Positions 5,089 to 46,100 of a stretch of 64,000 bases of DNA are shown here, in pieces (position 1 is the first letter of the stretch; each line of letters begins with the position of its first letter). The stretch comes from Sipunculus nudus (lineage: Eukaryota; Annelida; Sipuncula; Golfingiida; Sipunculidae). A program made the position numbers and the translations under genes. The stretch covers positions 40,900,456 to 40,964,455 of the forward strand of contig CM049318.1 in the NCBI GenBank assembly GCA_026874595.1, written 5' to 3'. Below the pieces are notes generated by a model that ran no database searches, had not been told where the DNA came from, and worked only from the letters and a program-made list of their open reading frames with translations.

Positions 5089-5345
5089 CCTGTAAGCTCA
5101 GTGGTAGAGCAGACGACCGGCAATCGGAGGGTCATGGGTTCGATTCCCATACGGGGTGATCCGACTTTTTCTGTGTATTCTTGTTCTATATGTGTCCCTA
5201 TGTAGAAGCCATCTTTCGTATGCATTTGGTCTGCCACTCACCAGGTGAAATCGGGTCACTGAAGCGTGACAGTGTTTATATATGAAAAGTGTATCGTTAA
5301 ACACATGAATGATAAGGAGGTTTTAAGGCTCCGACTGTAGAATCT
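5089..5345 (+). mobile_element. tRNA-derived SINE head and adjoining repeat
   Basis: A-box-like TAAGCTCAGTGG (5093-5104) and exact B box GGTTCGATTCC (5137-5147) with pairing D arm (GCTC/GAGC) and near-complete acceptor pairing (CCCTGT/ACGGGG). The anticodon arm does not fold, so this is a tRNA-derived SINE promoter rather than a tRNA gene. The sequence that follows recurs at about 12130. Confidence 0.65.
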
Positions 5346-6843: not shown

Positions 6844-8265
6844 GTATCCGCCAAAACAAAGTTTTGCGGATGCTATGTTTTTGGCCGGGTTCCGCCGCCG
6901 CCGCCGCCGTACTCGTTTCCGGAGAACTCCTCTGAGACTACTGGACTGATATTTCCGAACTTTACACCAATTATCGGGACACATGTGAACTGGTGCCTAA
7001 TCAATTGGCGTTGACCTCTGACCTTTCCTCTTTGCTCAGCGTCCATTTGTGCGTCTGTTTCCACACATAAACCCACATATTTCGGGAACCGTTTGACCGA
7101 TCAGGAAAAAAAATGTACAAATGTAGCACTTGGATAGCTTTAAAACATACACACAAAAAATGGTTGCGCCAGCTGCAACCATGTTTGCAGTGTCCATCTG
7201 TTCGTCTGCCTTGGGTTAAAATCACTCATATCTCTGCAATGGTTTGACTAATTCACCTGAAATTTGGCATGCGTATACATCCTAGATAGCTTTCTTGATT
7301 TTATGACAGGTGGCGCAACCTACATTCACGTTCACGCTGCAGACATCCATGCTTATATCTCCAGACTGGTTTGACTTATCTTCCTGAAAATTTGCTAGTG
7401 TATATATCTCACACAGCTCTTTATAATACGCAAAAGGGGGCCACCTGCGACCATTTTGGCACAGCGTCTGTCTGTTTGTCTGCCATGGGCTAAAACCACT
7501 AATATCTCTGAATTGGTTTTACATAACTGCCTAAAATTTTGCAGGTTTATACATCCTGGACAGCTTTCTTGATTTTATGACAAGTGGCGCCACCTACATT
7601 CTAGTTTACGCTGCATACATCCAAGCTCATATCTCGGGTACCTTTTGACCGATTGGGCCAATATTTTGCATGTGTATAGATCTCACATAGCTCTACCAAC
7701 CATTTTTTGGACAGCGTCCGTCTGTTTGTCTGCCGTGGGACTCATATCTCAGTAGTGGTTTCACTTATCTGCCTAAGATTTTGAATGTTTATACATCTTG
7801 GATAGCTTTCTCAATTTTTTTTGGCAGGTGGCGCCACCTACATTAATGTTAAAGCTGCAGACATTCAGGCTTATATCTCAGGACTGGTTGGACATATTCC
7901 CCTGAAATTTTGCATGTGTATAGATCTTACATAGCTCTTAATCATAAACAAAATTAATGGCGCCAACTGCCACAATTTTGCAGAAGTCCTTCTGTTTGTC
8001 TGCTGTGGGATAAAATTTCTCATATACATGTAGTGGTTTGACTTATCTGCCTAAAATTTTGCAAAAGTATACAACTTGGACAGCTTTCTTGATTTTGTGG
8101 TAGGTGGCGCAACCTACAGACACATTTCGGCTGCAGACATCCATGCTTATATGCAACACACCTCACTCTTTTTCCTCTTGTCACTCAATCCATGCCTCAC
8201 TTCACATGTCAATCTCTGATTTTGGCGGATACTCGTAGTCGCTTGTCGACTACCCGTATTCTAGT
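6844..8265 (-). mobile_element. R3 family element, copy 1 (best-preserved ends)
   Basis: Minus-strand copy. GTATCCGCCAAAAC at 6844-6857 and the exact complement TTTTGGCGGATAC at 8220-8232 form a 13-bp inverted repeat. Outside the latter is a hairpin GTAGTCG-N5-CGACTAC at 8235-8253 and then CCGTATTCTAGTT. The core has repeated units with GGTGGCGCCACC (7310, 7585, 7828, 8103) and CTGAAATTTTGCATGTGTAT. A CCG run sits near one end (6893-6910). Confidence 0.72.
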
Positions 8266-16305: not shown

Positions 16306-17570
16306 AACTAGAAAACTGATAGTCGACAAGGGACCACGTGTGTCCGCCGAAGTGAGAGTGATACAGGTGAAGTGAGGGATGGATTGAGTGGTATTTTACA
16401 CCACTCCTAAATAAAGTCCACTAAAATTCTGAAAAAAAGGCATTAATTTAACCATCAAAAACACCTGGCGCCACCTGTCTGATTTACGAAGAAAACTCTT
16501 CAAGACGGACTGACATGCCAAATTTCAGACCAGTAATTTGAACCACTCCTAAGATATGAGCACTTTTCACCCAAAGCAAATGTACAGATGGACACCACGG
16601 GAAAACGATTGCAGATGGTGCCACCAGTCTTGAGTACAATATGGAGGAGTCCATGATACATAGACCAGCACAATTTCAGGCCGATACGGCACACCACTCC
16701 TAAAAAAAGAGCAATATTTTATTCTACAGAAACAGGAAGGTAGGTGGCGCCACCTGTCTGGTTTACGAGAAAATTTTCCAAGATGGAATGACATGCTAAA
16801 TTTCAGACCAATACCTTGAACCTTTCCTGAGATATGAGCATTTATCACCCAAGCCACATGTACAAATGGCCACCACAGGAAAACAATTGCAGATGGCGCC
16901 ACCAGTCTTGAATACAACAAGTAGGAGTCCAAGATCTAAGGGTAATCACCATTTCATGCCAGTAAGGTAAATCACTCTTGAGAAAAGGGCATTAAATTAT
17001 TCTACAAAAACGGGAAGGTAGGTGGAGCCACCTGACTAGTTTACGAGAAAACTTTTCAAGATGGATGGACATGCCAAATTTCAGACCAATACCTTGAACC
17101 ACTCCTTAGATATGAGCAATTTTCACCAAAAGCAAATATACGGATGTAAGCCACGCGAAAACAACTGCAGATGGCGACACCAGTCTTGTTTATAAGATGG
17201 TGGTGTCGAGGATCTCTGAACATGCACAATTTCAACCCAATACATTAAAGGACCTCTAAGAAGTACATATGGCAAAAAGCACAGATGGACGCTAGGCACA
17301 AAGTATTGTAGGTGGCGCCATCAGTCACGATTACAAGATGGAGAGATCCAAGATTTATGGATATGCAAACTTTCAGCTTAATACATTGAGCCACTCCTCA
17401 GATATGGGCTGTTTTCTAAAAAAAAATCCAGATTCATACTGCACGGAAAGGATTGCAGGTGGTGCCACCTGTCTTTGTTACACACAACTACATAGGTGAG
17501 GGAACAACTAAGTCGGGTTTTGGGAAGATCAGTCCAAGGGTCTCAGAGGAGTTCTTCAGAAACAAACGAG
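16306..17570 (+). mobile_element. R3 family element, copy 2, 3' truncated, inserted in R2
   Basis: Starts AACTAGAAAACTGATAGTCG at 16306 and contains at least eight GGTGGCGCCACC-type cassettes of about 135-150 bp with ATTTCAGACCAATACCTTGA. It lacks the 3' hairpin and ends within the GTCTCAGAGGAGTTCTTC block. The R2 sequence TTGTATCAC-TTTT is present on both sides. Confidence 0.62.
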
Positions 17571-17798: not shown

Positions 17799-20700
17799 AA
17801 CAAGGCCTACAGGCCTAATGCGAACCTGTGCAAAGTTTAGGAGTATGAATGGAGGTTTATTTTTAAAATTGAATATTGATCCTCTAAGTCCTGCATATCT
17901 ACCTGACTCATTATGATTTCAGCAAAATGGACGTTTCCGACTTGCAAGTTTCAGACTAGGACATTTTAAAACCAGAATATGGGTAGTTCACAAGCGACTA
18001 TGTGTATCCCCAGAGATCAGAGTGGGACGGGTGAAGAGAGACATGGATTAAGTGGCAAGGGGAATAGAGTGAGGTTGTTGCATATTAGCATGGATGTCTG
18101 CAGCTTAAATGTGAATGTAGGTGGTGCCACCTGTCATAAAATCAAGAAAATTGTCCAGGATGTATACACCTGCAAAATTTCAGGTGGATAAGTCAAACCA
18201 CTGCTGAGATATGAGTGATTTTATCCCAAGGCAGATGAACAGATGGACACTGTGCATAAGTGGTTGCAGATGGCGGTTCCCAAGAAAACGGTTCCCGAGA
18301 TCTGAGCTTGGATGTCTGCAGAGTAAACCTGAATGTAGGTGGCGCCACCTGTCATAAAATTGAGAAAGTTGTCCAGGATGTATAAACCTGCAAAATGTCA
18401 GGTGGATAGGTCAAACCACTTCTGAGATATCAGTGATTTTATCCCAGGGCAGATGAACAGATGGATGCTGTGCAAAAGTGGTTGCAGGTGGTGCCACCAG
18501 TTTTGCCTATGATGAAGGGCAATGTGAGATCAATACACATGCAAAATTTTAGCCCAATCGGTCAAACGGTTCCCGAGATATGAGCTTGGATGTCTGCAGA
18601 GTAAATGTAAATGTAGGTGGCGCCACCTGTCATAAAATCGAGAAAATTGTCCAGGATGTATACACCTGCAAAATTTCAGGTGGATAATTCAAACAACTGC
18701 TGAGATATGAGTGATTTTATCCCAAGGCAGATGAACAGATGGACACTGTGCATAAGTGGTTGCAGATGGCGGTTCCCGAGGAAACGGTTCCCGAGATCTG
18801 AGCTTGGATGTCTGCAGAGTAAACCTGAATGTAGGTGGCGCCACCTGTCATAAAATTGAGAAAGTTGTCCAGGATGTATAAACCTGCAAAATGTCAGGTG
18901 GATAGGTCAAACCACTTCTGAGATATCAGTGATTTTATCCCAGGGCAGATGAACAGATGGATGCTGTGCAAAAGTGGTTGCAGGTGGTGCCACCAGTTTT
19001 GCCTATGATGAAGGGCTATGTGAGATCTATACACATGCAAAATTTTAGCCCAATCGGTCAAACGGTTCCCGAGATATGAGCTTGGATGTCTGCAGAGTAA
19101 ATGTAAATGTAGGTGGCGCCACCTGTCATAAAATCGAGAAAATTGTCCAGGATGTATAAACCTGCAAAATTTCAGGTGGAAAAGTCAAACCACTGCTGAG
19201 ATATGAGTAAAATTATCCCAAGGCAGATATACAAACGGACGCTGTGCAAAAATTGTTGCAGGTGGCGCCACCATTTTTTGTGTATGTTATAAAGCTTTCT
19301 AAGGGCTCATTTGTGCAAAATCTTTAGCCTTATTGGTCAAACGGTTCCCGAGATATGTGGGTTTATATGTGAAAACAGACACACAAATGGACGCTGGGCA
19401 GAGAGGAAAGGTCAGAGGTCAACCTTAAAATGAAGGCGAGGCAGTTCACATGTGACCGATCGTAATTCCGAATTTTAACAAATTCTGCCCAGTGGTTATG
19501 GAGGAGTTCTCCGGAAACCTATGCAGCGATGGCGGCAGCTTTGGCATCCGATTGAAAACATAGTATCCACAAAACTCTGTTTTGGCTGATACAATGTTTG
19601 TAGCTGGCACCACCAGTCTTATATACAATGAAGAGATATATACATATGCCCAATGTCAGACTGATATGTCAAACCTCTCCTGTGAAATAAGCAGGGACAT
19701 ACACTGTGCAAAAATTATTGTAGCTGGCGCCACCAGTCTTGTACACTATAAAGCTACCCGATATGTAGAAACATGCCCAATTTTAAGCTGATGTATTTAA
19801 ATTCCGAGCTGTAGAAATAAGCAGGCGCATACACTGCAAAAGTAAATGTTGGTGGCACCACCTGTCTTGTAAATGAGAATACCATCAAAGACGCATATCA
19901 GTCCAATACATCAAACTGCCCCAGAGTTTTATGCACTGGGCTGACAAGGCTAAGGTGAGTAAGGCAGTTGCCCCGGAGTGACCTGTGACAAATTGCTGCC
20001 TCAAGCTACTGCACTGAGTGAACTCTTGACCTGCACCTGGCTAGACTGAGTGAACTTTTGACCTGTACCTGACTGCACTGAGTGAACTCGACCTGTTGCA
20101 TAATCTGACACTATGGCAGTCTGCCAAAGCTATAAATAGATTCAGGCTGAACTTTGGTGCCAAATATGATGCAGTGAGCAGTCTGCCAAAGCTATAAATA
20201 GAATGCAGCTACTGCACTGAGTGAACTCTTGACCTATACCTGGCTGCACTTCTTCCAATCCTGGCACTGTGCCAAAACTATGTATAGTGCTGACATCATC
20301 TTTTGCTAATGGCCCACATCAAGGCACTGGCAATGTGCCAATGGTAATCCAAGTGCTGCCATCTGTACACAAAAGTGGTCCCTACTTGAAATAACTTTGA
20401 AATTTATTTTCCCAATACAAAATGCTTTTCAGCTGACTTTTAATAAAAAAAGAAATCAGGAATATATGTAAAATTATTACGGATAAATACTGAATGCAAA
20501 ATTAAAATACAGATATATCTCATTGATCGCAAAAATACCAATAATTTTTAATCCACGTACAGTTGTCTTTATATAGCCACAAAGAGCTAAATATCCATGA
20601 TTGTTACATTGTCTGGTATGATGAATAACTTAAATCATAAATCTAAATTTTTTAAAAGCTTATAAAAAAACTTTCTTGTCAATATTAACCAAAGATAACC

Positions 20701-21829
20701 TGAAATCTAAATGTCTAGTGGCATGATGTAACAGATGCTGATAAACTGGTGCCAGGCTAGATGTAACAGCATTACACAGCTAACATATATGGTAAAATGA
20801 CTAATAATATGTAATAATTCAGCCATAAATCATTCATGTGGAACCATTTATGACAATTATAATAAGAATTATTGTAGGGATTATTCTTGTAAAATATTTA
20901 ACAAACTGGCTTCAGTGGCAACAGTCGAAAAACGTTTTGCAGGTTTATAACTCATATAAGAAGATACAGCAAACTGGCCAAGTTCAGCTTCCCGTAACTC
21001 AGCCAAAAAGCACTGATCCAAAGCCACTTGAACAAACTTAAATTATCAACATCTGAGGATAATTAATGTGTGAGATTTAAGAAATTGGCTCATTGGTTTT
21101 TGAGAAGAAGATCTTTGTAGTCACTGAACTAAAATGGGATGTTATGGCATATGACTAAATTCAGCTTCCTATAACTTAGCCAAAAGTCACTGAACAGAGA
21201 CTGTTTGAACAAACTTCAGAAAGCACTACCCTAGGATCATTTCTGTGCAATATTAATCATTTTGGCCATATGGTTTCAGAGAAGAAGTTTTTTTGTAGCC
21301 CTCAGTGTGATACAGGCAGAGATGACCCCGTACAAAAAAAGCTGATGCAGGTGGCGCCACCAATACCTCAATTTCAGATATGACCTATGTGACCAACATT
21401 GGCATAAAATTTGGTGATGATAGCTCCAGCCATTTCTGAGATTTAAATTTTAATATGCTTTTTTGGAAAGATGACAAAGTTCAACCTCCTGTCACTCAGC
21501 AAAAAATCTCTGAACTGGAACCATTCGAACAAACTTGAGAGAGATTGTTCCAGGGATCATTTCTGTGAAATATAGGACAATTTAGCTGGACAGTTTCAGA
21601 GAGGAATTTTTTTAAAGATTTTTTTTTAGCTTTTTCCCTATAAAATCAAAGAAAATGCAGTAAGAAAAAAAATAAACAAAATCCGATAGTTTTTTGGACG
21701 ACTGATTATTTGCAAAAACTTTGGTGATGCTAGCTCCTGCCGTTTTTGAGATAGCTTTGGTTAACGTACGACGCACGACACACGACGGACAACGCCGCAC
21801 CATCGCATAAGCTCACAGGTTCGCTAAAA
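17799..21829 (+). mobile_element. R1 family element, copy 2 (4.0 kb), nested in R2 and carrying an R3 insert
   Basis: Hairpin AGGCCTACAGGCCT at 17803-17816, GCGAACCTGTG at 17820-17830, and exact complement CACAGGTTCGC at 21814-21824, then TAAAAA. The flanks are R2 sequence that joins well across the element (compare the uninterrupted R2 unit near 22480-22520). Its 5' part is interrupted by an R3 copy at 17970-19595. Confidence 0.78.
17970..19595 (+). mobile_element. R3 family element, copy 3, inside R1 copy 2
   Basis: Starts CCAGAATATGGGTAGTTCAC at 17971 and ends in the R3 terminal hairpin GTATCCACAAAACTCTGTTTTGGCTGATAC (two arms of 13-14 nt, 19563-19592). The core holds dimeric cassettes and a 496-bp tandem duplication. 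The R1 sequence resumes immediately after. Confidence 0.68.
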
Positions 21830-22869
21830 ATACAAATGGCGCCACAGGTCTGCAGGAACTGATAAACCATTTAATGATCAACACGCATGCAAAAAATCAT
21901 GGCAATCAACGCATTATTTATTCACATACTGGAGCTTTTGTATCAAATTTTTAATTGTTCTGGGTGGTATATACGGGCCCCATAGCTTGGAGGATATGGG
22001 TAAAAGAGACCTAATTTCAGGTTTCCCAGGAGATTATTTACTGACTTCTGTGGGTGTGAAGGTAGATTCTAGATCGAACGGTTACGATTTGTGCCCTGTT
22101 AACGGACATCCACTTCATTCGAAGGTCTCAAAAATAGAGAAAAAATGCTTAACAATTCGAAAAAAGTACAGGTGGAACCACCAGTCTGCAAGACCTGATG
22201 AAACAATCCATGATCAATATTCATGCACAGAATCAAGGTGATCAATGTATTAGTTATTCAGATACTGGAGCTTTTGTATCACATTTTTAATTATTCTGAG
22301 GGGTACTTATGAGCCCCATAGCTTGGAGAATATGGGCAATTGAGACCTTAATACAGGTTTCCACAGAGACTTTTCATGGACCTCTTTTGATGTCAAGTAA
22401 GAAGATTCCAGGTCCAGAGGTTACGATTTGTGCCCTGTTACAGATGACGGCTTCTTTGAAAGTCTCAAAAATAGAGAAAAAAATTCATAAAAATTAGAAA
22501 AAAAATACAGGTGGTGCAACCAGTTTGCAGGAACTGATAGAACATTCCATGGTCAATACTCATGCAAAGGATCATGGTGATCAATGCAGTAGTTATTCAG
22601 GTACTTGAGCTTTTGTATCAAATTTTTTTTTATTCTGGGGGTGTACTTACGAGACCCATAGCTCAGAGAATATGGGTAACAGAGACCTAATTTCAGGTTT
22701 CCAAAGAGATTTTTCATGGACCTCCCTGGATGTCAAGTTAGAAGATTCCAGGTCCAGCGGTTAAGAATTGTGCCCTATTAACGGACGGACAGCCGGACGA
22801 TGGACGAAGAGTGATCGCTATAGCTCTGATGACTTTCAGTCAGCTGAGCTAAAAATATTAGGTCTCAAA

Positions 22870-26895: not shown

Positions 26896-27118
26896 TCATA
26901 TCAGCACATGTTCCAACAGTGTATTGCTTGTGAATCTATAGAAGTATGGAAGATCATGGAAGTGATGTTCCTTGGACACATGTTCAATCACCTGACCAAT
27001 CAAAAGCTGTTTTCCATAGTCCACAGCATCTTCTCTCTCATTTGCTAATCCCATCTCCATCAACCAATCAACAAAGTCTGTTCCACAGAAAACTGATCGG
27101 TAGGTTTTAAATCTGTAT
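26896..27118 (-). CDS. GPR155: GPR155 exon 15 (DEP domain and stop)
   Basis: Terminal coding exon. Contains the DEP core [20 protein letters not shown], then [20 protein letters not shown] and YFYRF. The stop lies shortly after the DEP domain, so the protein lacks the long Ser/Pro-rich tail I recall in vertebrate proteins. Acceptor TTGCAG. Confidence 0.92.
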
Positions 27119-30100
27119 CTGCAACACAATAAAAAAAACAATTAGTTTTCAGAATCCTGTAAAAAGATCAAGCTGTATACCTACATGAATGGTGCTAAAA
27201 TATAAATCAGAGCCATACTAATAGACGAGTAATTAGGAAGATTAAATTATACCTCACATATTTAATGTTAATTTATGCTACTAATAATTGTTACAATTCT
27301 TCAATGAACTAGCGATCTTATGTTGACTCTGTATGTTATACATAATTCAGAATTTTTTGAAAATTTAAATACTAATCATTTAGGATTTCTAAATTCACAG
27401 TATTCTGCCTACCTTTTAGTAGTTACAATATCATTGATACATGTTGTTTTGTGATGTGCTATAAATCGATGACAGATCTGTTTAGTTTCTGGTGTCAATT
27501 CATGCGGAGCTGGAATATGAATTGTCTCAGCACCGTAAATGAGCCTGCGCCACCTAAAATATACAACAAATCTCTTATTAAAATAATTATGTCATTTGAG
27601 CATTTTTAATATTATTACATAAATTTATCTATAAAAAATGTGTCTTGCTATGGAACACACTGATTTCCCTTTAAATTTTGCATAAGGAAGAAAAGAACAT
27701 ACCTGTTTTAAGATACCTGTTTTTGACAATGTCTGATTTACCTGTTAAATTTTACAATCAACAGATATATTTCATAAAATTTTTTATATGCACTGAAGAC
27801 ATATTCGGCAAACCTCCTTTACATATTAGCCCCATTTACACATGTTTTTCTAGAGCACTCAACATTCTTTAGTGCATGCCAAGTCCCCCAAATGTGCCAG
27901 ACTTTGAGGATTTTCGGTCTGTAGCACCCTACATTTTGACCACTGGTGAGTGTAGGTTCTACATTCTAGCACATGCCAGACGCTGTCTGGGGCGAGCATC
28001 TGGGGCGGCCTTCATTTGTGCTTAGAAGGTGTGTAACGGAAGTGGAGCGCGCTATCTGTATAGCGTGCTACAGCATAACTCAGCTGTCATGTGACTATGA
28101 TTTACCCATGCACGCAAGGGGGAATCCAATCTAGACCACACTTGATTGCAGTATTTATCTGCATGTAAACGCATTGCAGATTCTAGGCCAGGCCAAGTGC
28201 AATGCTGCCTAACTTGACAGGGTAGCATGCTCTAAATTGTCACTTGGTCCTGACGGTGTAAAGGCAAGTTAAAATGTAGCCCCCTCCACATTTTTCTGTT
28301 CAGGTCTAGTGCACGCCACATTTTGCTAGTGTAAATGGGGCTAATGTGTCTTCATACACTACTGTGGTGAAATGCTCGTTTCTCATTTTATCTTTCTTGA
28401 TTTATGTCAATAGAACGCTTGATCCAAAAATTGTCTTTCAACATCATTGTGCTGTTGATTCAATCAAATATGTAGCAAAGTTTGAAAAGATGATTCAAAT
28501 GTTATTAATCTTTATCATGTATCACAAGAAATTATGCATAGACAGAAATTTATTATAATTAAGTGTTATTATGAAAGTGTGATAAAAACAGGAATTTTTC
28601 ACAGGAATTTTTCACAATGATTTCAATCATGTGAATGTATCATGCTTGATTCATATTTGGAGAAGTATTTACATGTGTGGTTTTACCTTTTCATAAATGG
28701 ACTGATGACCATCTGCATATCCAAGCCGTAAACACCAAAGGTAAAAATACCCTGAAACAGGAAACTCCTTGCTTTAATTCCATATAAAGAATCACTGAAC
28801 ATTCTGTACATGAGACACTCTAAAATTTCAGCAAGGTATTTTGATGTTAAGGACCAGGATATCAGTGTTATCAATAGAACTTGCAGCCTCAAGCCACTTT
28901 ATTATCAAACAGAACTCGAGCCTCCAGCCACTTTCTTATCAAACAGAACTCGCAGCCTCAAGCCACTTTATTATCAAACAGAACTCTCAGCCTCAAGCCA
29001 CTTTATTATCAAACAGAACTGGCAGCCTCCAGCCACTTTATTATCAAACAGAACTCGCAGCCTCCAGCCACTTTATTATCAAACAGAACTCGCAGCCTCA
29101 AGCCACTTTATTATCAAACAGAACTCGCAGCCTAAAGCCACTTTATTATCAAACAGAACTCGCAGCCTCAAGCCACTTTATTATCAAACAGAACTCGCAG
29201 CCTCAAGCCACTTTATTATCAAACAGAACTCGCAGCCTCAAGCCACTTTATTTTTAAACAGAACTGGCAGCCTCAAGCCACTTTATTATCAAACAGAACT
29301 CGAGCCTGGAGCCATTTTATTATCAAACAGAACTCGCAGCCTCAAGCCACTTTATTTTTAAACAGAACTGGCAGCCTCCAGCCACTTTATTATCAAACAG
29401 AACTTGCAGCCTCAAGCCACTTTCTTATCAAACAGAACTCGCAGCCTCAAGCCACTTTATCATCAAAAAGAACTCGCAGCCTCAAGCCACTTTATTTTTA
29501 AACAGAACTGGCAGCCTCAAGCCACTTTATTTTCAAACAGAATTGAGCTTCCAGCCACTTTATCATCAAACAGAACTCACAGCCTCAAGCCACTTTATTA
29601 TCAAACAGAACTCGCAGCCTCAAGCCACTTTATTATCAAACAGAACTCGCAGCCTCAAGCCACTTTATTATCAAACAGAACTCGCAGCCTCAAGCCACTT
29701 TATTATCAAACAGAACTCGCAGCCTCAAGCCACTTTATTATCAAACAGAACTCGCAGCCTCAAGCCACTTTATTTTTAAACAGAACTGGCAGCCTCAAGC
29801 CACTTTATTATCTAACAGAACCCGCAGCCTCAAGCCAATTTATTATCAAACAGTACTCGCAGCCTCCAGCCACTTTATTATCAAACAGAACTCGCAGCCT
29901 CCAGCCACTTTATTATCAAACAGAACTCACAGCCTCCAGCCACTTTATTATCAAACAGAACTCGCAGCCTCAAGCCACTTTATTATCAAACAGAACTCGT
30001 AGCCTCAAGCCACTTTATTATCAAACAGAACTCGCAGCCTCAAGCCACTTTATTTTTAAACAGAACTGGCAGCCTCAAGCCACTTTATTATCAAACAGAA

Positions 30101-33100
30101 CTCGCAGCCTCAAGCCACTTTATTTTTAAACAGAACTCGCAGCCTCAAGCCACTTTATTATCAAACAGAACTCACAGCCTCCAGCCACTTTATTATCAAA
30201 CAGAACTCGCAGCGTCAAGCCATTTTATTATCAAACAGAACTCGCAGCCTCCAGCCACTTTATTATCAAACAGAACTCGCAGCCTCCAGCCACTTTATTA
30301 TCAAACAGAACTCGCAGCCTCAAGCCACTTTATTATCAAACAGAACTCGCAGCCTCAAGCCACTTTATTATCAAACAGAACTCGCAGCCTCAAGCAACTT
30401 TATTATCAAACAGAACTCGCAGCCTCAAGCCACTTTATTATCAAACAGAACTCGCAGCCTCAAGCCACTTTATTTTTAAACAGAAATGGCAGCCTCCAGC
30501 CACTTTATTATCAAACAGAACTGGAGCCTGGAGCCATTTTATTATCAAACAGAACTCGCAGCCTCAAGCCACTTTATTATCAAACAGAACTCGCAGCCTC
30601 AAGCCACTTTATTATCAAACAGAACTCGCAGCCTCAAGCCACTTTATTTTTAAACAGAACTGGCAGCCTCAAGCCACTTTATTTTCAAACAGAACTCGAG
30701 CTTCCAGCCACTTTATCATGAAACAGAACTCACAGCCTCAAGCCACTTTATTATCAAACAGAACTCGCAGCCTCAAGCCACTTTATTATCAAACAGAACT
30801 CGCAGCCTCAAGCCACTTTATTATCAAACAGAACTCGCAGCCTCAAGCCACTTTATTATCAAACAGAACTCGCAGCCTCAAGCCACTTTATTATCAAACA
30901 GAACTCGCAGTCCAAGCCACTTTATTATCAAACAGAACTCGCAGCCTCAAGCCACTTTATTATCAAACAGAACTGGCAGCCTCAAGCCACTTTATTTTTA
31001 AACAGAACTGGCAGCCTCAAGCCACTTTATTATCTAACAGAACACGCAGCCTCAAGCCACTTTATTATCAAACAGAACTCGCAGCCTCCAGCCATTTTAT
31101 TATCAAACAGAACTCGCAGCCTCCAGCCACTTTATTATCAAACAGAACTCGCAGCCTCCAGCCACTTTATTATCAAACAGAACTCGCAGCCTCAAGCCAC
31201 TTTATTATCAAACAGAACTCGCAGCCTCAAGCCACTTTATTATCAAACAGAACTCGCAGCCTCAAGCCACTTTATTTTTAAACAGAACTGGCAGCCTCCA
31301 GCCACTTTATTATCAAACAGAACTCGCAGCCTCAAGCCACTTTATTATCAAACAGAACTTGCAGCCTCAAGCCACTTTATTATCAAACAGAACTCGCAGC
31401 CTCCAGCCACTTTATTATCAAACAGAACTCGCAGCCTCAAGCCACTTTATTATCAAACAGAACTCCCAGCCTCAAGCCACTTTATTGTCAAACAGAACTC
31501 GCAGCCTCCAGCCACTTTATTATCAAACAGAACTCCCAGCCTCAAGCCACTTTATTATCAAACAGAACTCCCAGCCTCAAGCCACTTTATTATCAAACAG
31601 AACTCGCAGCCTCAAGCAACTTTATTATCAAACAGAACTCGCAGCCTCAAGCCACTTTATTATCAAACAGAACTCGCAGCCTCAAGCCACTTTATTTTTA
31701 AACAGAACTGGCAGCCTCCAGCCACTTTATTATCAAACAGAACTCGAGCCTGGAGCCATTTTATTATCAAACAGAACTCGCAGCCTCAAGCCACTTTATT
31801 ATCAAACAGAACTCGCAGCCTCAAGCCACTTTATTATCAAACAGAACTCGCAGCCTCAAGCCACTTTATTTTTAAACAGAACTGGCAGCCTCAAGCCACT
31901 TTATTATCAAACAGAACTCGCAGCCTCAAGCCACTTTATTATCAAACAGAACTCGCAGCCTCAAGCCACTTTCTGATCAAACAGAACTGGCAGCCTCCAG
32001 CCACTTTATTATCAAACAGAACTCGAGCCTCCAGCCACTTTATCATCAAACAGAACTCGCAGCCTCAAGCCACTTTATTATCAAACAGAACTCGCAGCCT
32101 CAAGCCACTTTATTATCAAACAGAACTCAAGCCTGGAGCCATTTTATTATCAAACAGAACTCGCAGCCTCAAGCCACTTTATTATCAAACAGAACTCGCA
32201 GCCTCAAGCCACTTTATTATCAAACAGAACTCGCAGCCTCAAGCCACTTTATTTTTAAACAGAACTGGCAGCCTCAAGCCACTTTATTATCAAACAGAAC
32301 TCGCAGCCTCCAGCCACTTTATTATCAAACAGAACTCGCAGCCTCAAGCCACTTTATTATCAAACAGAACTCGCAGCCTCAAGCCACTTTCTTATCAAAC
32401 AGAACTCGCAGCCTCCAGCCACTTTATTATCAAACAGAACTCGAGCCTGGAGCCATTTTATTATCAAACAGAACTCGCAGCCTCAAGCCACTTTATTTTT
32501 AAACAGAACTGGCAGCCTCCAGCCACTTTATTATCAAACAGAACTCGAGCCTGGAGTCATTTTATTATCAAACAGAACTCGCAGCCTCAAGCCACTTTAT
32601 TATCAAACAGAACTCGCAGCCTCAAGCCACTTTATTATCAAACAGAACTCGCAGCCTAAAGCCACTTTATTATCAAACAGAACTTGCAGCCTCAAGCCAC
32701 TTTATTATTAAACAGAACTCGCAGCCTCAAGCCACTTTATTTTTAAACAGAACTGGCAGCCTCCAGCCACTTTATTATCAAACAGAACTCGAGCCTGGAG
32801 CCATTTTATTATCAAACACAACTCGCAGCCTCAAGCCACTTTATTATCAAACAGAACTCGCAGCCTCAAGCCACTTTATTTTCAAACAGAACTGGCAGCC
32901 TCAAGCCACTTTATTATCAAACAGAACTCGCAGCCTCAAGCCACTTTATTATCAAACAGAACTGGCAGCCTCAAGCCACTTTATTATCAAACAGAACTCG
33001 AAGCCTCAAGCCTCTTTATTATCAAACAGAACTCGAGCCTGGAGCCATTTTATTATCAAACAGAACTCGCAGCCTACAGCCACTTTATTTTTAAACAGAA

Positions 33101-36100
33101 CTCGCAGCCTCCAGCCACTTTATTATCAAACAGAACTCGAGCCTGGAGCCATTTTATTATCAAACAGAACTCGCAGCCTCAAGCCACTTTATTTTTAAAC
33201 AGAACTGGCAGCCTCCAGCCACTTTATTATCAAACAGAACTCGAGCCTGGAGTCATTTTATTATCAAACAGAACTCGCAGCCTCAAGCCACTTTATTATC
33301 AAACAGAACTCGCAGCCTCAAGCCACTTTATTATCAAACAGAACTCGCAGCCTCAAGCCACTTTATTATCAAACAGAACTCGCAGCCTCCAGCCACTTTA
33401 TTATCAAACAGAACTCGCAGCCTCAAGCCACTTTATTTTTAAACAGAACTGGCAGCCTCCAGCCACTTTATTATCAAACAGAACTCGAGCCTGGAGCCAT
33501 TTTATTATCAAACACAACTCGCAGCCTCAAGCCACTTTATTATCAAACAGAACTCGCAGCCTCAAGCCACTTTATTTTTAAACAGAACTGGCAGCCTCAA
33601 GCCACTTTATTATCAAACAGAACTCACAGCCTCAAGCCACTTTATTATCAAACAGAACTGGCAGCCTCAAGCCACTTTATTATCAAACAGAACTCGCAGC
33701 CTCAAGCCTCTTTATTATCAAACAGAACTCGCAGCCTCAAGCCACTTTATTTTTAAACAGAACTCGCAGCCTCAAGCCACTTTATTATCAAACAGAACTC
33801 GCAGCCTCAAGCCACTTTATTATCAAACAGAACTCGCAGCCTCAAGCCACTTTATTTTTAAACAGAACTGGCAGCCTCAAGCCACTTTATTATCAAACAG
33901 AACTCGCAGCCTCCAGCCACTTTATTATCAAACAGAACTCGCAGCCTCAAGCCACTTTATTATCAAACAGAACTCGCAGCCTCAAGCCACTTTATTTTTA
34001 AACAGAACTGGCAGCCTCCAGCCACTTTATTATCAAACAGAACTCGCAGCCTCAAGCCACTTTATTTTTAAACAGAACTGGCAGCCTCCAGCCACTTTAT
34101 TATCAAACAGAACTCGAGCCTGGAGCCATTTTATTATCAAACACAACTCGCAGCCTCAAGCCACTTTATTATCAAACAGAACTCGCAGCATCAAGCCACT
34201 TTATTTTTAAACAGAACTGGCAGCCTCAAGCCACTTTATTATCAAACAGAACTCGCAGCCTCAAGCCACTTTATTATCAAACAGAACTGGCAGCCTCAAG
34301 CCACTTTATTATCAAACAGAACTCGCAGCCTCAAGCCTCTTTATTATCAAACAGAACTCGCAGCCTCAAGCCACTTTATTTTTAAACAGAACTCGCAGCC
34401 TCAAGCCACTTTATTATCAAACAGAACTCGCAGCCTCAAGCCACTTTATTATCAAACAGAACTCGCAGCCTCAAGCCACTTTATTTTTAAACAGAACTGG
34501 CAGCCTCAAGCCACTTTATTATCAAACAGAACTCGCAGCCTCCAGCCACTTTATTATCAAACAGAACTCGCAGCCTCAAGCCACTTTATTATCAAACAGA
34601 ACTCGCAGCCTCAAGCCACTTTATTTTTAAACAGAACTGGCAGCCTCAAGCCACTTTATTATCAAACAGAACTCGCAGCCTCAAGCCACTTTATTTTTAA
34701 ACAGAACTGGCAGCCTCAAGCCACTTTATTATCAAACAGAACTCGCAGCCTCCAGCCACTTTATTATCAAACAGAACTCGCAGCCTCAAGCCACTTTATT
34801 TTTAAACAGAACTGGCAGCCTCAAGCCACTTTATTTTCAAACAGAACTCGCAGCCTCAAGCCACTTTATTTTTAAACAGAACTGGCAGCCTCAAGCCACT
34901 TTATTATCAAACAGAACTCGCAGCCTCAAGCCACTTTATTATCAAACAGAACTGGCAGCCTCAAGCCACTTTATTTTTAAACAGAACTGGCAGCCTCAAG
35001 CCACTTTATTATCAAACAGAACTCGCAGCCTCAAGCCACTTTATTATCAAACAGAACTCGCAGCCTCAAGCCACTTTATTATCAAACAGAACTCGCAGCC
35101 TCAAGCCACTTTCTTATCAAACAGAACTCGCAGCCTCAAGCCACTTTATTATCAAACAGAACTCGCAGCCTCCAGCCACTTTATTATCAAACAGAACTCG
35201 AGCCTGGAGCCATTTTATTATCAAACAGAACTGGAGCCTGGAGCCACTTTATTATCAAACAGAACTCGCAGCCTCAAGCCACTTTATTTTTAAACAGAAC
35301 TGGCAGCTTCCAGCCACTTTATTATCAATTGAACTTGCAGCCTACTGCAACTTTATTTTCTGCTAACACTGTCAGAACAAGGATAAACATTTGTCAGTTT
35401 TAACTTTCAGAATTTGTACATGTATATAATCTGTATAGCCACCAATTAACATGCAGCAAACATACTACAAGGCTACTGGTGTCAAAAAAAGGTCATAGAT
35501 GAGGTTGATTTGATATAACAAGTGACCCTTGGGTCATGACGCTCAGCCCACTGACATGTTGACAATATGTCCTTGCACAGACAACTAATTAAGGTAATGT
35601 AGGTGGCATCATTGTTCATGTAAATTAGCGTAAGTTCATCAAGACCAATAAGCACAACAAATCTGATGACAAACCAACCAGCCTTTCATGAGGAATCTGG
35701 CAATTTGTGTGTATTTTGCATTATTTCTAGGGTGCTCAAACATACCCAAAACTCTGAGAATATAGTTCACTGTGACCCTATTTCAGGTTTCTGGGGAGAA
35801 CTTTTGAGGAACTCTCAGGATGTCGAGTTAGAAGATTCTGGTCCCAAAGGTTATGATTTGTGACCTACTTTGGTATCAAATTTTCAATTATTCTGAGGGG
35901 TGCTTATATTTAAAAGCCCCATAGCTCAGAAAATATGGTTACAGAGACCTAAATACAAGTTTCCAAGGAGATTTTTATAGACCTCCCTGGATTTTAGGTT
36001 AGAAGATTCCAGGTCAAATGTTTATGATTTGAGCCCTGCTTTGGTATCAAATTTTAAATTACGATGGGAGGTTCTTATAGGCCCAATAGCTCAGAGAATA

Positions 36101-37118
36101 TGGGTAACAGAGACCAAATTTCAGGTTTCCATGGAGACTTCTTATTAACCTCTCTGGATGTAAAGTGAGAAGATTCTATGTCTAGTTGTTACGATTTGAG
36201 CCCTGTTAACAGATGACAGCATCTTTAAGGTCTCAAAATAGAGAGAAAAAAGTTGTTAAAAAAAATCTAAAAAAATACAGGTAGTGCCACCAGTCTGCTG
36301 AAACTGATGTAACACCCCATGATCAATATCCATGCAAAGAATCATGGTGATCAATGCATTAGTTGTTCAGATATTTGACCTTTTTTACATTGTTTTATTA
36401 TTCGGGGGGTGGGTACTTTGGAGCCCCATAGCTTGAATAATATGGGTAACAGAAACTTAATTCAAGGTTTTTCAAGATTTTTTCATGGACCTCTCTGGAT
36501 CTAAAGTTAGAAGATTCCAGGTCCAGTGGTAACGATTTGTGCCTTGTTAACGGACAGAGGGCCGGACGGATGACAGACAAAGAGTGATCGCTATAGCTCA
36601 GATGACTGAGCACAACAGCACAGAATATAATAAAAAATCCCCTGTCTATTGTCGTGACAGATTACACCTAATGCCTGAAACTGTTCAGATTCTGCCTGTG
36701 GGATTTAGGCTTTTCAGCTTCTGGTCAAAACCACCAGACAGTAACCTACCTTAGAACTTCCCTGTTTGTCTGCTATCTAAATTACGTGTATTTATGACTT
36801 GACTGAATGAAATCAGCCATTACCTGTCCAAACATGAGTATGCTGTCCAGAAACTCGATGACCACGTAGATCCCAGAGGTCAGCTCATGAAACAGTCTCC
36901 AAACACACAGAAAGAAACCCTACAGGAAACAAAGTATTGTCTTGTAAATGTGAATTACTATGGGTACATTCCCTGCAAACAGAATAAATAGAGGAAAATG
37001 GGCATAATGTATTTTTCAACCAAAAAATTTAACCAATATGTTTTACAAGTATATGAAAGTATGTAATTAATACACAGATATAATCAATCATAACTCCCAT
37101 TAATATATATATATATGA

Positions 37119-40100: not shown

Positions 40101-43100
40101 GACACTTTTATGTTGACATTTTCGTTCCATGCAATAAAAGCATAAATATGTGTATTTATTGCTCTTTCATTATAATGCAATTTTCTCCTGGAATTCTCAA
40201 GCTTTTGTCCTCTCTGATTCATTCTGCTACTTCCGAACATCTCCACCTAATCCCGAAGTCTGTAAGCACACGGTTCCACCCACACGCGTGAATTCAGATA
40301 CATGTGTTTTATAAAAATAAATGTGATTCTTTGAAATAAATTTATTTTGAACCTCAAGGGCTTGCTTGTGAACTAAAATCGTGAACAAAAAATGATATCG
40401 TGGTATCGCGATAATAGGAAAGTTGACAGTATGATAACCATAGCTGTCAGATATCGTGATAATACCGTATACCGGTAACCGTCCCAACCCTAGATCCTTC
40501 CTTGTCAATGTACAAGACCCAAGCACTCAGTGTGAGTCCTGGCTGATAGGTGTCACCATTTGTTTGCTGTGTATGATGATTTGTCTGTCCGCCTGTTTGT
40601 TTGCTGTTTATGATGTTTTGTCTCAGCCCGTTTGTTTGCTGTTTATGATGTTTTGTCTGTTGATCTGTTTGATTGCTGTGTGTGAATGTTTTGTCTGTCC
40701 ACCTGTTTGTTTGCTGTATATGATGATTTGTCTGTAAGCATGTTTGTATGCAGTGTAAGTTATTTTGTTGGCCTATTTGTTTGCTAGTACTGTGTATGAT
40801 GATTTGTCTGTTGGCTAGTTTGTTTACTGTGTATGATGTTTTGTCTGTTGGCACATTTGTTTGCAGTGCATGTTGTTTGTCTGTTGGCATGTTTGTTTGC
40901 TGTGAGTGATGTTTTGTCTGTTGGCCAGTTTGTTCACTGTGTATGATGTTTTGTCTGTTGGCCTGTTTGTTAACTGTGATTGTTGTTTTGTCTGTTGGCC
41001 TGTTTGTTTGCTGTGTGTGATGTTTTGTCTGTTGGCCTGTTTGTTCACTGTGTATGTTGTTTTGTCTGTTGGCCTGTTTGTTCACTGTGTATGTTGTTTT
41101 GTCTGTTGGCCAGTTTGTTCACTGTGTATGTTGTTTTGTCTGTTTGCCTGTTTGTTCACTGTGTATGTTGTTCTGTCTGTTGGCCTGTTTGTTCACTGTG
41201 TATGTTGTTCTGTCTGTTGGCCTGTTTGATTGCTGTGTGTGATGTTTTGTCTGTTGGCACATTTGTTTGCAATGTATGTTGTTTGTTTGTTTTGTCTGTT
41301 GGCCTGTTTGTTCACTGTGTATGATGTTTTGTCAATTGTGACACTTTTATGTTGACATTTTCGTTCCATGCAGTAAAAGCATGGCCTGTTCGTTTGCTGT
41401 GTGTGATGTTTTGTCTGTTGGCCTGTTTGTTTACTGAGTATGATGTTTGCCTTTTGGCCTGTTTGTTTGTTGTGTGTGATGTTTTGTCTGTTGGCCTGTT
41501 CATTTGCTGTTGGTGATGTTTTGTCTGTTTGCCTGTTCGTTTGCTGTGTATGAATCTAAAAGATGGTATGGATGCAGATCAGTGGAAATCTGTGGAGAGA
41601 TAAATCTTGTGGAATAGAAGACTTTCCCTACAGGTGCCATGCAGCCAGCACTACTGTACTTTGTCACCTCTTACCTGGGCCAGTATTGACGGCCTGGACC
41701 CTGACTCTTATTTCATCTGGCACAAGGTCTTCAATATTAACTGGTCCTGAGGAGGTGCCTGAAAAGGACACATATAAAATGAATAATGTCCTAAAGCACT
41801 CCTAATGAGCTTTTAAATGTTGCTAACCTAAGTCCTGCAACTGATGTAGCAGTTTTGTTGGATGTAATTTTCCTCATATTTATCTGGATATTCTGCCATT
41901 ATTTGAAGATATATGTTAAATACAAAACTAAAATGTATTAAGTTCAAATTCTGTGACTGACACTCAAATACAGTTTAAAATTCAAAATTGTAGATTCTAT
42001 GACTCAACAAGTGGCCCATGGGCCATGCTCTCAGCTAAATTCAAGGAACCTTGAACAATGGGTAAAATGACTTCCAGTCTCAAAATTATGCTTTTTGCCA
42101 AAAGTCCTTAGGAAAGGGTTACATTGACTTAACTGTGGTTTTCCAAGAAAATTTTACCAGGAAATCCCTAGATGCTAAGTTTCTTTGTCCAACTGCTACA
42201 TTTTGTGCCTATCTAACTTATTTGGAGAGCTAAAATCATATTCTTCCAAAAAGCTCGCAGAATATAAGGTCATAGTGACCTTATTGCAGGTTTCCAAGAA
42301 ATTTTACAGGAACCTCCCTGGATCTTAATAAAATTAAAAGTTTTTGGGTCCAAATGTTACCAATCATACAAATATGTCCTTTTGGATGCTCAAATCATGT
42401 TCTTTCACATATCTTTTAGAATATAGGTCCCATGACCTAATTTCAGGTTTTTACAGAGATTTACCAAGGACCTCCCTTAAGATATTAGGCCAAACAGATA
42501 CAATTTGTGCCCTGTCTGACCCACTGGATGCTCAAAATCATGTTTTCAGCCTGTATTTCATATAATATAGGTCACCATGACCTAATTTCAGGTTTCCAAG
42601 GAGATTTGCCTATTACCTTCCTGGATTTACAGTAAGAAGTTTCTGGGTCTATCAGTTACTATTAACAGCCAAACTGCTTCATTTGATGATCAAAAATAAA
42701 GAAAAATATGCATAAAATTAGATAATACATGGGTTGTGCCACCAGTCTTCAGTAACTGATGAAACACTCTATGATCAATATTCATGGAAAAAACTCATGG
42801 CAATCAATGCATAAGTTATTCAGATACTGGAGCTTTTGTTTCAAATTTCCATTTTTGGATGGGGGGGGGGGGGTGATAATTAAGAACCCCATAGCTCAGG
42901 GAATATAGGTCACAGTGACCTAATTTAAGATTTCCAAGGGATTTTTTAATAAGCATCCATTGGTATTAAGTTAGAAGTTTCTAAATCCTGTGGATACAAT
43001 TTGTGCCCTGTTAACAGACAACCAGACAGACGCTGAATGGCCATACAAAGGACAAAGAGTGATTGCTATAGCTAAGATGACTTTCAGCAAGTTGAGCTAA

Positions 43101-46100
43101 AAATGGAGGTGGTTACCTTCACCATAAAACAAATCATTAAAAAAAAATAACTACCTTGAACTGGAGAACAGCCCACACAGTCACTGCACTGCTTCTTCTT
43201 AACACTGGCCTTTACTTTCACTACTCGACCTTTCCTGCGAACTTGACTTTTCTTAAGACCATGACCTGGGTTATCACCCTGGCCTCTCTCAATAGCACCT
43301 GTTGTCTGCATGGCATCTATCAGTGGCTCTGTCTCTTTATCATCTGGCTCTGAGTTATCAGTAATCTTATCATGAAGCTCTTCTTTTTTGTCATCATCCT
43401 CAGGTGAGTCTGCATGTCTGTGTCCATCATACCTCTGCTGAAGCACCAGGGTTACTATGGTAACCAGGATGTTCAGGAGCAGAACAACCATAGATATAAT
43501 CATCTGAAATTGTGGACCAAGCATATGTAAGACTAAGTATGGCTTTAACAGTTAAGTAATTAGGAATTTAATCCACAATACTATAATTTTTAATGAATTT
43601 ACAGTCACATTAAATGAACTAAAACATTCTATTGTATAAAAAATCTTAAATATTTTCAAAGCATGAAAAACTCTTTATTTTGAAATGGAGCGTGTGCAAT
43701 TTTTTTTTTACTACATTGAGTTAAAAATTGGATCACCAACGTAACAGGAATTTGAGAAATCATCTGATGAACACCATTAACAAACTGATCAAAAGAACTT
43801 AAAAAAGCAAGGATGTTAAGTGGAAATTCTTTCCTTTAAACCTCAAACTAATGTTTCCCTTTCACTGATGTGTACTCTTTGTGTTTTACATGATCTGACC
43901 TCTTGAAAACCTTACCTGTGGCATCTCATACTGCTCAACAGGACTATCACGGTCATACGGCTTAAATCCACTGATGATCAACAGAATCGCCAACATTATC
44001 ACTGGCATCCTGAAAATTATACAATTATACAATTAAAAATATGTCAATATATGTATATTATAAATCTATATATTTATATATGAAATCTTTTAGCTTTAAT
44101 GTTCCATTCTGCCAACACAGGGGTCATCTTGCAGGGCTTTATTAAAGGTTACAAGACATGAACTGTAATGTGTCATTCACAGTTTTCTCTACTGAGGAAC
44201 CACAGCTAAGGAATAAACTTCCATCACTCATCACCCATTATCTGAAAAGGAAATCAATAATTTTATCTTGCAGTGAATCTGTTGGATCAAAATTATTCAG
44301 TTTATTAGGTATCTTCTGACATTTTCACACTACACTCATCACCTTTGCAAATGGTGAATGAGCTTGGTGGACAGCATTAAAACACTGGAGTCAGTTTGAC
44401 AAGATTGGTTCTACCAGTGTGATATGTTAACAAGGCATACATGTTTTGACTTTCCACAGTTTCCTGGGTATAATGGTTATACATTACATAACTCAGAAAG
44501 TATAGCTTCAAGTGAAGTTTATCTTCCTGGGTCTTACTGTTAATAAATGTCAGGATTGATATACTATTGACAAAGGGCCATCACTATAGCTCAGATGATT
44601 TACCATCAAACAAGACGAAAACCTCTGACAGTTGAAGGAGATTTGATGTGTCATAATATGATGGATGCCAAGAGAATACACCTAATAGTAACAGTTACGG
44701 TACTGTGTTGGCAGCTGTTGTGCATTGTGCTCTGATACTGTTCTATTTAAAACTCAACATATATATTGTGCAACTTTGTTCTTATTCATAATTCGTAAAT
44801 CAAATGCATAAGTTTACCACCCTTTACAATTATCCATTCAAGAAACAAGTAGCCCAGGGGCCATGACGCTCAGTTGAATTCAAGGAACCTTGAACAATGG
44901 GTAACATGACTCCCAGAGTGATAAAAATTATGCATTTTGCAAATAGACCTAGATATAGGTTAAAATGACCTTATTCTACATCTAGCTCCTACCATTTGTA
45001 ACCATCTGACTAATACTAATAGAATGTTAAAATCAAGTTGTGGAGCTTTTTATCAAATATTGTGGTCAGTACTTAAGAACCCCATAACACTGAGGATATG
45101 GGTAACAGAGACCTGATTTCAAGTTTCCATGAAGATTTTTTCATGGATCTCCCTGGATATATAGGGTTAGAAGTTTCTAGTTCTAACGGTTACAATTTGT
45201 GCCTTGTTAAGGGCCAGACAGCTGGATGGACATACAGACGGACCTACAACACACAAAAAGATGACTTTCAGTCAGCTGAGCAAAAAATACTTTCAATGAT
45301 GTATGGTCTGTCAACCTTGATATAACATGACACTGCTTTTTGACAAGACTGATGCCCTCTTGTTGACAATACAATCATATGTTTTGCTACTTGTCAGGAG
45401 TTGTTTCATTTGGACACTTACCCTATGCCATATATGTACATGAACGGTCGAGCTCTTAGGGCGAAGCACAAGCTCCAGCAGCGTAGGAAATATAAGCTGA
45501 GTGATATCACCGCCACCCAGCATCGTGCTCCAAATATACCCAAGATGAATATACAGAACTGCACATAGTGAACTCCTGGTATAGCAACATTTGTGTTTCT
45601 CCACAGTATCATACCTAGCGCTGTGAGCAACTGTAAATAAATCGTACATTTATATAAATATACAAAATCTATAATATCCCATGTCTAATTTTTATGACAT
45701 GTCTTCTACATTGTACACTCATGTAACAGCTTGCGAAAAAATATAGACATATAAAACTGTAAATGCCACAAGTAGAAATTTAGAGACCTAAAAGATTTCT
45801 GATCATTTTGCTGAAAAAAAGAGATATTTAAATACTTAAATTCTACAGTTTTGCATTCTTGGACTCCTATGGTTTCTAACACATTGCGGTAACCCAGTCT
45901 TTTAAAAAAATTAACAGTAAGTTAAAAATAAAGGTCAGAATGCATTCGACTTCATCTTCAATCATCAGTGAAATCAGTATATATTTGAAATTAGTCAACT
46001 GTGTAGGAGTATGAAATTTCTGATCATTATATAGACCTGTACAATATCAACTCAACTGACCATAGGCCTACATGTTTACTAATATATGTAATAATTCTAT

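Follow-up and report, generated by a model that had tools for sequence, protein, structure and literature searches.

In Sipunculus nudus, the intron between exons 12 and 13 of the GPR155/LYCHOS gene contains a 6.5-kb minisatellite that presents the core poly(A) hexamer AATAAA 177 times in the orientation of the host transcript. We consider it probable that this is a locus-private repeat in which one chance poly(A) stretch has been copied, that the resulting sites are rarely used and that full-length LYCHOS is still made.

Minus-strand pieces of the window (the whole 64,000-nt stretch of DNA analysed) match LYCHOS/GPR155, with E values of 2.2e-41 and 3e-43 to LYCHOS chains, and the host protein contains the Pfam domains Mem_trans (PF03547) and DEP (PF00610, E 1.5e-18). 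LYCHOS similarity at both ends, comprising a PIN-like transporter part and the C-terminal DEP domain, supports the original prediction that the gene is the GPR155/LYCHOS ortholog. A repeat-like piece at 44833-44949, about residues 430-468 in the query, was left out of the exon count, with no effect on the exons that flank the array. The features that bear on the array are as follows.

36824-36919, minus strand: upstream coding exon (exon 12), ending in DSILMFGQ and encoding the first half of the last hydrophobic segment; from the LYCHOS alignment.
28752-36823, minus strand: host intron of 8,072 nt, GTAATG...TTTCAG; splice sites read from the sequence.
36785-36823, minus strand: codons that would be read through if the transcript ended in the array, giving 13 residues and then a stop.
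35358-36823, minus strand: part of the intron from donor to array; it has three words that match the 5′ splice-site consensus at 7/9, and one more sense AATAAA placed 424 nt past the donor.
28868-35357, minus strand: 35-bp minisatellite with sense unit TTTGATAATAAAGTGGCTTGAGGCTGCGAGTTCTG and 177 AATAAA in the GPR155 orientation; from TRF, word counts and unit alignment.
28687-28751, minus strand: downstream coding exon (exon 13); from the LYCHOS alignment and splice coordinates.
27413-27553, minus strand: next coding exon, the linker towards DEP and the DEP start; from the LYCHOS alignment and coordinates.
26896-27118, minus strand: last coding exon found, with most of DEP (PF00610, E 1.5e-18) and the stop TGA at 26898-26896.

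The array ends 116 nt before the acceptor (about 125 nt had been estimated), which leads to the DEP-coding exons. Cleavage within it had been expected to remove both the last helix and DEP. The loss of DEP stands and the expectation is broadly right, but the last membrane helix would be cut in the middle rather than removed whole because exon 12 already encodes its first half; on our reading of the helix the cut would fall near residue 703 of the LYCHOS chains. A DEP-less LYCHOS isoform is a possible, predicted product. The exons downstream of the array are open, which together with the DEP score suggests that the full-length protein may still be selected for.

TRF reports the array as a minisatellite with a period of 35 bp, 186.1 copies and 92% matches, its head-to-tail unit falling within the class of roughly 10-100 bp; that it is more than chance is beyond doubt. 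The 185 full units, known from one haplotype, fall into 47 types on unit alignment. The variant form that had been proposed, AAAATAAAG, is real, with A at unit position 4 in 33 of the 185 units and at position 6 in 36 of them. Blocks of units recur along the array (10 units at lag 18 and 7 units at lag 20) and show that multi-unit duplication took part in its growth. At the sensitivity used, the array is private to this locus. With up to 3 mismatches allowed, a unit-derived 30-mer gives at least 165 matches across the 1.43-Gb assembly, all on one strand, and the array alone holds 165. A 70-nt query gives 90 matches, a lower bound like all the genome-wide counts, and every one of them lies in the array. 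No second locus carrying the unit was found at this sensitivity, and a dispersed satellite was rejected on these counts.

All 177 exact AATAAA copies lie on the transcript-sense strand and none on the plus strand, in good agreement with the roughly 180 units originally predicted for the host orientation. The predicted recurrence every 35 nt also holds: successive hexamers are 35 nt apart in 152 of 176 pairs, 34 nt in 16 and 68-105 nt in 8. Nine of the 185 full units lack the hexamer, and the 177th copy sits in a partial edge unit. Downstream of 167 of the 177 hexamers is the tract GTTCTGTTT, which starts after 17 nt in 152 copies and after 16 nt in 15 (10 have no exact copy) and so fills about nucleotides 18-26, where a GU-rich tract had been placed at 18-27.

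The downstream-element distance, UGUA, CstF-type words and the 5′ splice-site consensus were all taken as usually defined. We compared the array hexamers with 135 of the 138 other AATAAA in the window, on both strands, dropping three near the window ends. Downstream G+T content is high, being equalled or exceeded by only 8% of the comparison set. The downstream T fraction is ordinary (61% are at least as high), as is the content of CstF-type words (41% are at least as high). UGUA, the CFIm element, is helpful rather than essential to a poly(A) site; it occurs once in the whole sense array, with a mean of 0.01 copies within 60 nt upstream of array hexamers compared with 0.40 for the other 135. 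The near lack of UGUA and the ordinary T fraction and CstF-type words suggest that the array copies are weak, cryptic poly(A) sites.

The number of hexamers is a poor guide to their significance. Across 170 kb of sampled genome, in hand-placed and non-random stretches, AATAAA occurs 1.38 times per kb per strand, which would put it in 4.8% of 35-bp units per strand, making a sense-strand hexamer in the unit roughly a 1-in-20 event. Of 19 minisatellite-like arrays, 14 of them in the genome sample and 5 in the window (the present array among these), 3 carry AATAAA on one strand or the other; the two besides the present array are AT-rich and short. All 177 hexamers descend from a single event, and a count of about 180 signals misleads because every word of a single 35-bp unit is multiplied equally; GATA- and forkhead-type words are multiplied just as AATAAA is. 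The array would have grown by duplication of multi-unit blocks out of a single 35-bp stretch in which AATAAA, followed by a U/GU-rich tract, by chance lay in the host orientation, so that expansion copied a minimal poly(A) site some 177 times.

There is no sign that hexamer variants have been purged: of 40 distinct variants, 3 hit AATAAA, which is not significantly few (one-sided P = 0.07), and selection on the hexamer was set aside on this count. Nor does the rest of the gene body help, with 19 sense and 31 antisense AATAAA outside the array (P = 0.12), numbers too small to use; the fourth-exon end used for this count is off, which leaves the exons flanking the array unaffected.

If the copied sites are mostly silent, the cleavage machinery would use each of them rarely, full-length LYCHOS with DEP would still be made, and at most a minor share of transcripts would end in the array. 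For half of the transcripts to cross, use per hexamer must stay below 0.4% if hexamers act independently. The original prediction invoked strong U1 protection or local structure, and neither is borne out. The array has no word matching CAGGTAAGT at 6/9 or better (the best is 5/9), and internal U1 words find no support as the protection; minus-strand sequence outside the host intron has 4.8 such words per kb, a density at which some 85% of 35-bp units would have none, and their absence is not surprising. The host donor is of ordinary strength (7/9), the first array hexamer is 1,466 nt from it, and 16 of the 178 sense AATAAA in the intron are within 2,000 nt. Excerpts of PMC5499120 give median ranges of U1 protection of about 500 nt in fly and about 1,000 nt in human and mouse. 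The first part of the array could be covered by words in the 1,465-nt 5′ flank, whose nearest 7/9 match lies about 200 nt ahead of the first unit; the bulk has no 5′ splice-site word within about 0.5-1 kb upstream. RNA structure finds no support either. One 281-nt piece folds with a z-score of -0.58, with 53 of 200 shuffles folding as well, and 40 sampled array hexamers have an opening energy of 1.16 kcal/mol compared with 1.33 for 60 other sense AATAAA.

Several observations count against silence. The core geometry matches that of a genuine poly(A) site, downstream G+T is high, the hexamers are as accessible as others, and splicing of the intron cannot pre-empt them because all 177 precede the acceptor. 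Among the six-mers of the unit, the six best kept are AATAAA itself (95%) and five from the U/GU tract (96-97%), the pattern expected under selection for a poly(A) site, but distinct variants in the hexamer are not significantly few (P = 0.07). Sense AATAAA is disfavoured in introns across 17 eukaryotes, according to the consulted part of PMC5499120, so the presence of 177 tolerated copies calls for an explanation beyond what the sequence offers.

A rival reading is that the array is an intronic terminator in working order. A substantial share of transcripts would be cleaved in the array, read-through would be (1-p)^N with N the copy number, and the product would be either a protein that breaks off within the last helix, gains 13 residues and lacks DEP, or something unstable that lowers gene dose. 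The tract behind 167 of 177 hexamers, the conservation of both words, the lack of splice-site-like words where other minus-strand sequence has 4.8 per kb, the distant donor of ordinary strength and hexamers that are not unusually buried all fit, and use of 1% per copy would already reduce read-through to 17%. We nevertheless judge such a terminator unlikely, given almost no UGUA, ordinary downstream T content and CstF-type words, and fully kept downstream exons. Truncation within a membrane helix would be an improbable product of selection, and the absence of the unit elsewhere in the assembly, hence of a retrocopy of any array-ending message, argues weakly in the same direction. Less likely again is a graded attenuator, in which about 177 feeble sites in series, with the same (1-p)^N, let copy number set LYCHOS dose or isoform between individuals.

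We give little credence to a role at the DNA level, in which a cluster of GATA-type (TGATAA) and forkhead-type (TGTTTR) sites forms an intronic enhancer or antisense promoter and the poly(A) words are bystanders. With the motifs in their customary form, the sense strand of the array holds 147 WGATAR and 180 TGTTTR, compared with 9.4 and 8.2 per 6.49 kb and strand elsewhere in the window, but any unit word is enriched by the same artefact of multiplication as AATAAA. There is a precedent in the hTERT minisatellite MNS16A, with varying numbers of GATA1 sites in the part of PMC5438627 consulted. It is highly improbable that the plus strand codes for an antisense repetitive protein or is part of such a transcript: canonical units are stop-free there and the longest stop-to-stop stretch is 645 codons (30722-32656), but the make-up of a single unit accounts for this openness, the period of 35 is not a multiple of 3, and TTTTTAAAC variants introduce stops.

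Most likely, then, the array is an ordinary repeat that multiplied a single signal arisen by chance and that the cell mostly ignores, which makes it a clean natural test of such ignoring. The way in which cells ignore intronic AATAAA is incompletely understood; U1 sites close by, the customary explanation, do not fit most of this array. Here about 177 minimal poly(A) sites, almost identical, stand in a natural row ahead of an acceptor, with no U1-like words between them. Mapping of 3′ ends over it would give the in vivo cleavage probability per site, even one as low as a fraction of a percent, and would show whether anything besides U1 silences minimal sites. Should the sites not be silent, a cholesterol-mTORC1 sensor would be tuned by repeat length.

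The tandem poly(A) 'stop' cassettes of transgenes likewise place several poly(A) sites in series, but these are engineered and strong, whereas the GPR155 units are weak. No intronic array of poly(A) signals is described among the listed titles and abstract openings that pair tandem repeats or minisatellites with intronic, alternative or premature polyadenylation, a scope that covers no subscription papers; the broadest listing is weak, comprising the best 20 of 1,423, none with the words 'intronic polyadenylation', and the next broadest comprises the best 20 of 70. Premature termination in sheep SCF intron 5 is comparable in that poly(A) signals are predicted within an intron and, should the GPR155 array terminate transcripts, in its truncated message, but in the sections of PMC3376141 consulted there are a few signals in a 729-bp intron stretch and no array. 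The satellite-containing introns of the Drosophila Y-loop genes kl-3 and kl-5 similarly have a long tandem array transcribed before the acceptor (PMC6508621, in part); the GPR155 array, at 6.5 kb and with a private unit, is no gigantic intron, and the comparison with kl-3 and kl-5 is made without regard to poly(A) words. Cryptic intronic poly(A) sites under U1 telescripting share a sense AATAAA ahead of an acceptor (portions of PMC5499120 and PMC11489095), whereas the GPR155 array has about 177 regular copies in 6.5 kb, starts beyond the quoted U1 range and has no 5′ splice-site-like words inside. Intronic or gene-associated minisatellites and VNTRs such as MNS16A of hTERT likewise have a head-to-tail unit of 10-100 bp in or beside a gene, as far as the excerpted PMC5438627 describes them; what sets the GPR155 array apart from these is the presence, unit by unit, of a core poly(A) hexamer in the orientation of the host.

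Minus-strand open pieces match LYCHOS (GPR155), a cholesterol sensor, at both ends of the protein (E = 2.2e-41 for an N-terminal piece, 3e-43 for the joined C-terminal pieces), and the Pfam domains Mem_trans (1e-16) and DEP (1.5e-18) are found in this gene. A minisatellite occupies much of one of its introns, which is 8,072 nt long.

Features of the window
36824-36919, minus strand: exon on the donor side of the array, GT at the intron end
28868-35357, unit read on the minus strand: 35-bp tandem array, 186.1 copies, 92% matches
28687-28751, minus strand: exon on the acceptor side, AG at the intron end
5087-5158, plus strand: tRNA gene (Rfam RF00005, 44.9 bits)
7498-7938, 16466-17188, 18082-19357, 21826-22780 and ~36280 onward: tandem-duplicated or dispersed repeats sharing GGCGCCACC-like or CAGGTGGAGCCACC-like cores

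One of these core-sharing repeats sits in the host intron, upstream of the array. A 39-residue minus-strand open piece (44833-44949), at first read as an exon, matches many places in the genome and is probably a dispersed repeat, because 45 of 57 matches to a query holding it lie outside the window and all 45 cover it. The gene also contains a second minisatellite (40559-41553; 37-bp period, 26.5 copies, 78% matches), whose consensus unit has AATAAA on neither strand.

The array begins 1,466 nt downstream of the donor and ends 116 nt before the acceptor, close to the 125 nt of the original prediction, which also described the repeat accurately. Its unit, read on the minus strand, is TTTGATAATAAAGTGGCTTGAGGCTGCGAGTTCTG, and exact AATAAA occurs 177 times on that strand and never on the other. 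Successive hexamers are 35 nt apart in 152 of 176 cases (34 nt in 16), and the downstream GTTCTGTTT tract starts at +17 nt in 152 of 177 copies and at +16 nt in 15, with no exact tract found in 10. Wrap-around alignment gives 185 full units of 47 types, nine lacking AATAAA. Blocks of unit types are repeated along the array (10 units at lag 18, 7 units at lag 20), the pattern expected if it grew by multi-unit exchange. The antisense strand is open stop-to-stop for 645 codons (30722-32656), as follows from a unit that contains no stops.

The U/GU-rich tract stands at the usual distance from the hexamer for a poly(A) site, and downstream G+T content is high: among 135 other window AATAAA, just 8% equal or exceed the array hexamers. 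Downstream T content and CstF-type words are ordinary by the same comparison, and the sense array has a single UGUA. The array hexamers are about as accessible as those elsewhere (opening energy 1.16 kcal/mol for 40 sampled of the 177 versus 1.33 kcal/mol for 60 others). Hexamer and tract are the best-kept six-mers of the unit, but judged by distinct variants the hexamer is not significantly conserved (3 of 40 hit it, P = 0.07). An AATAAA at 24913 on the minus strand, 1,985 nt beyond the GPR155 stop, is preceded by sequence containing TGTA and followed by TGTTGT; by eye it is a better candidate site than the array units, and is possibly the gene's real end.

All 177 hexamers come ahead of the acceptor in transcription, and the host intron therefore cannot be spliced out before they have been made. 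If hexamers are used independently, half of transcripts pass only with per-hexamer use below 0.39%, and 90% only below 0.06%. The open exons beyond the array and the well-preserved DEP domain lead us to infer that the gene yields full-length message and that any single copy is hardly ever used.

The main alternative, that the array is a terminator yielding a sizeable truncated share, seems unlikely given those intact downstream exons. A transcript ending in the array is predicted to add 13 residues before a stop, and by the exon coordinates about 142 residues would be lost. The flanking exons join at about residue 703 of LYCHOS chains, which on our reading of the sequence lies inside the last hydrophobic segment; excerpts of PMC11574030 place DEP after TM11-17. 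Cleavage would thus remove DEP, as predicted, together with only the C-terminal half of the final helix rather than all of it. A DEP-less LYCHOS has been solved, since deposited chain 8wr3_A has 718 residues and its match stops at 717; its length suggests that it retains the entire last helix. Nine other chains in the same match table have at least 840 residues each and match through DEP.

Near-silence of the copies is not readily accounted for by the two proposed protections, U1 and local structure, which leave the bulk of the array unexplained. Excerpts of PMC5499120 put the median reach of U1 protection at ~500 nt for fly and ~1,000 nt for human and mouse; they also report sense AATAAA as disfavoured in introns of 17 eukaryotes. 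An excerpt of PMC11489095 suggests a possible role for extra cryptic 5' splice sites when introns are larger. U1 could cover the array start, because the closest 7/9 word lies ~200 nt ahead of it. Within the array no 5' splice-site word reaches 6/9 (five reach 5/9), an absence usual by chance for a 35-bp unit; the minus strand outside the host intron has 266 words at 6/9 or higher in 55.9 kb. No unusual fold was found for an array piece (z -0.58; 53 of 200 shuffles fold equally well or better).

A single chance event with odds of about 1 in 20, followed by copying, suffices to account for the pattern; the 177 hexamers are not 177 independent observations. In 17 hand-chosen 10-kb stretches from 17 contigs, AATAAA occurs at 1.38 per kb and strand (reversed control AAATAA, 1.36), and therefore with a chance of ~4.8% per 35-bp unit on a given strand. 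Three of 19 minisatellite-like arrays in these stretches and the window, this one included, have it within their unit on either strand. One stretch (C8:27000001-27010000) is entirely an 83-bp tandem array of 120.5 copies. Other words are multiplied as strongly as AATAAA: WGATAR occurs 147 times versus 9.4 per strand in an equal length of the remaining window, and TGTTTR 180 versus 8.2. That the array is instead a DNA-level site cluster is improbable.

At this search sensitivity the unit appears only at this locus. Genome-wide counts being lower bounds, and withheld sequence being masked as N, a 30-mer of it (up to 3 mismatches) has at least 165 matches in the 1.43-Gb assembly, all forward, and exactly 165 in the array alone; a 70-nt query finds at least 90 places, all inside the array. 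These searches found no second allele or retrocopy carrying array units.

Among the open-literature papers listed, no equal to this natural sense series of minimal poly(A) sites is described. As an object the array is an intronic minisatellite, and its value lies in being an in vivo measuring device for poly(A) site silence.
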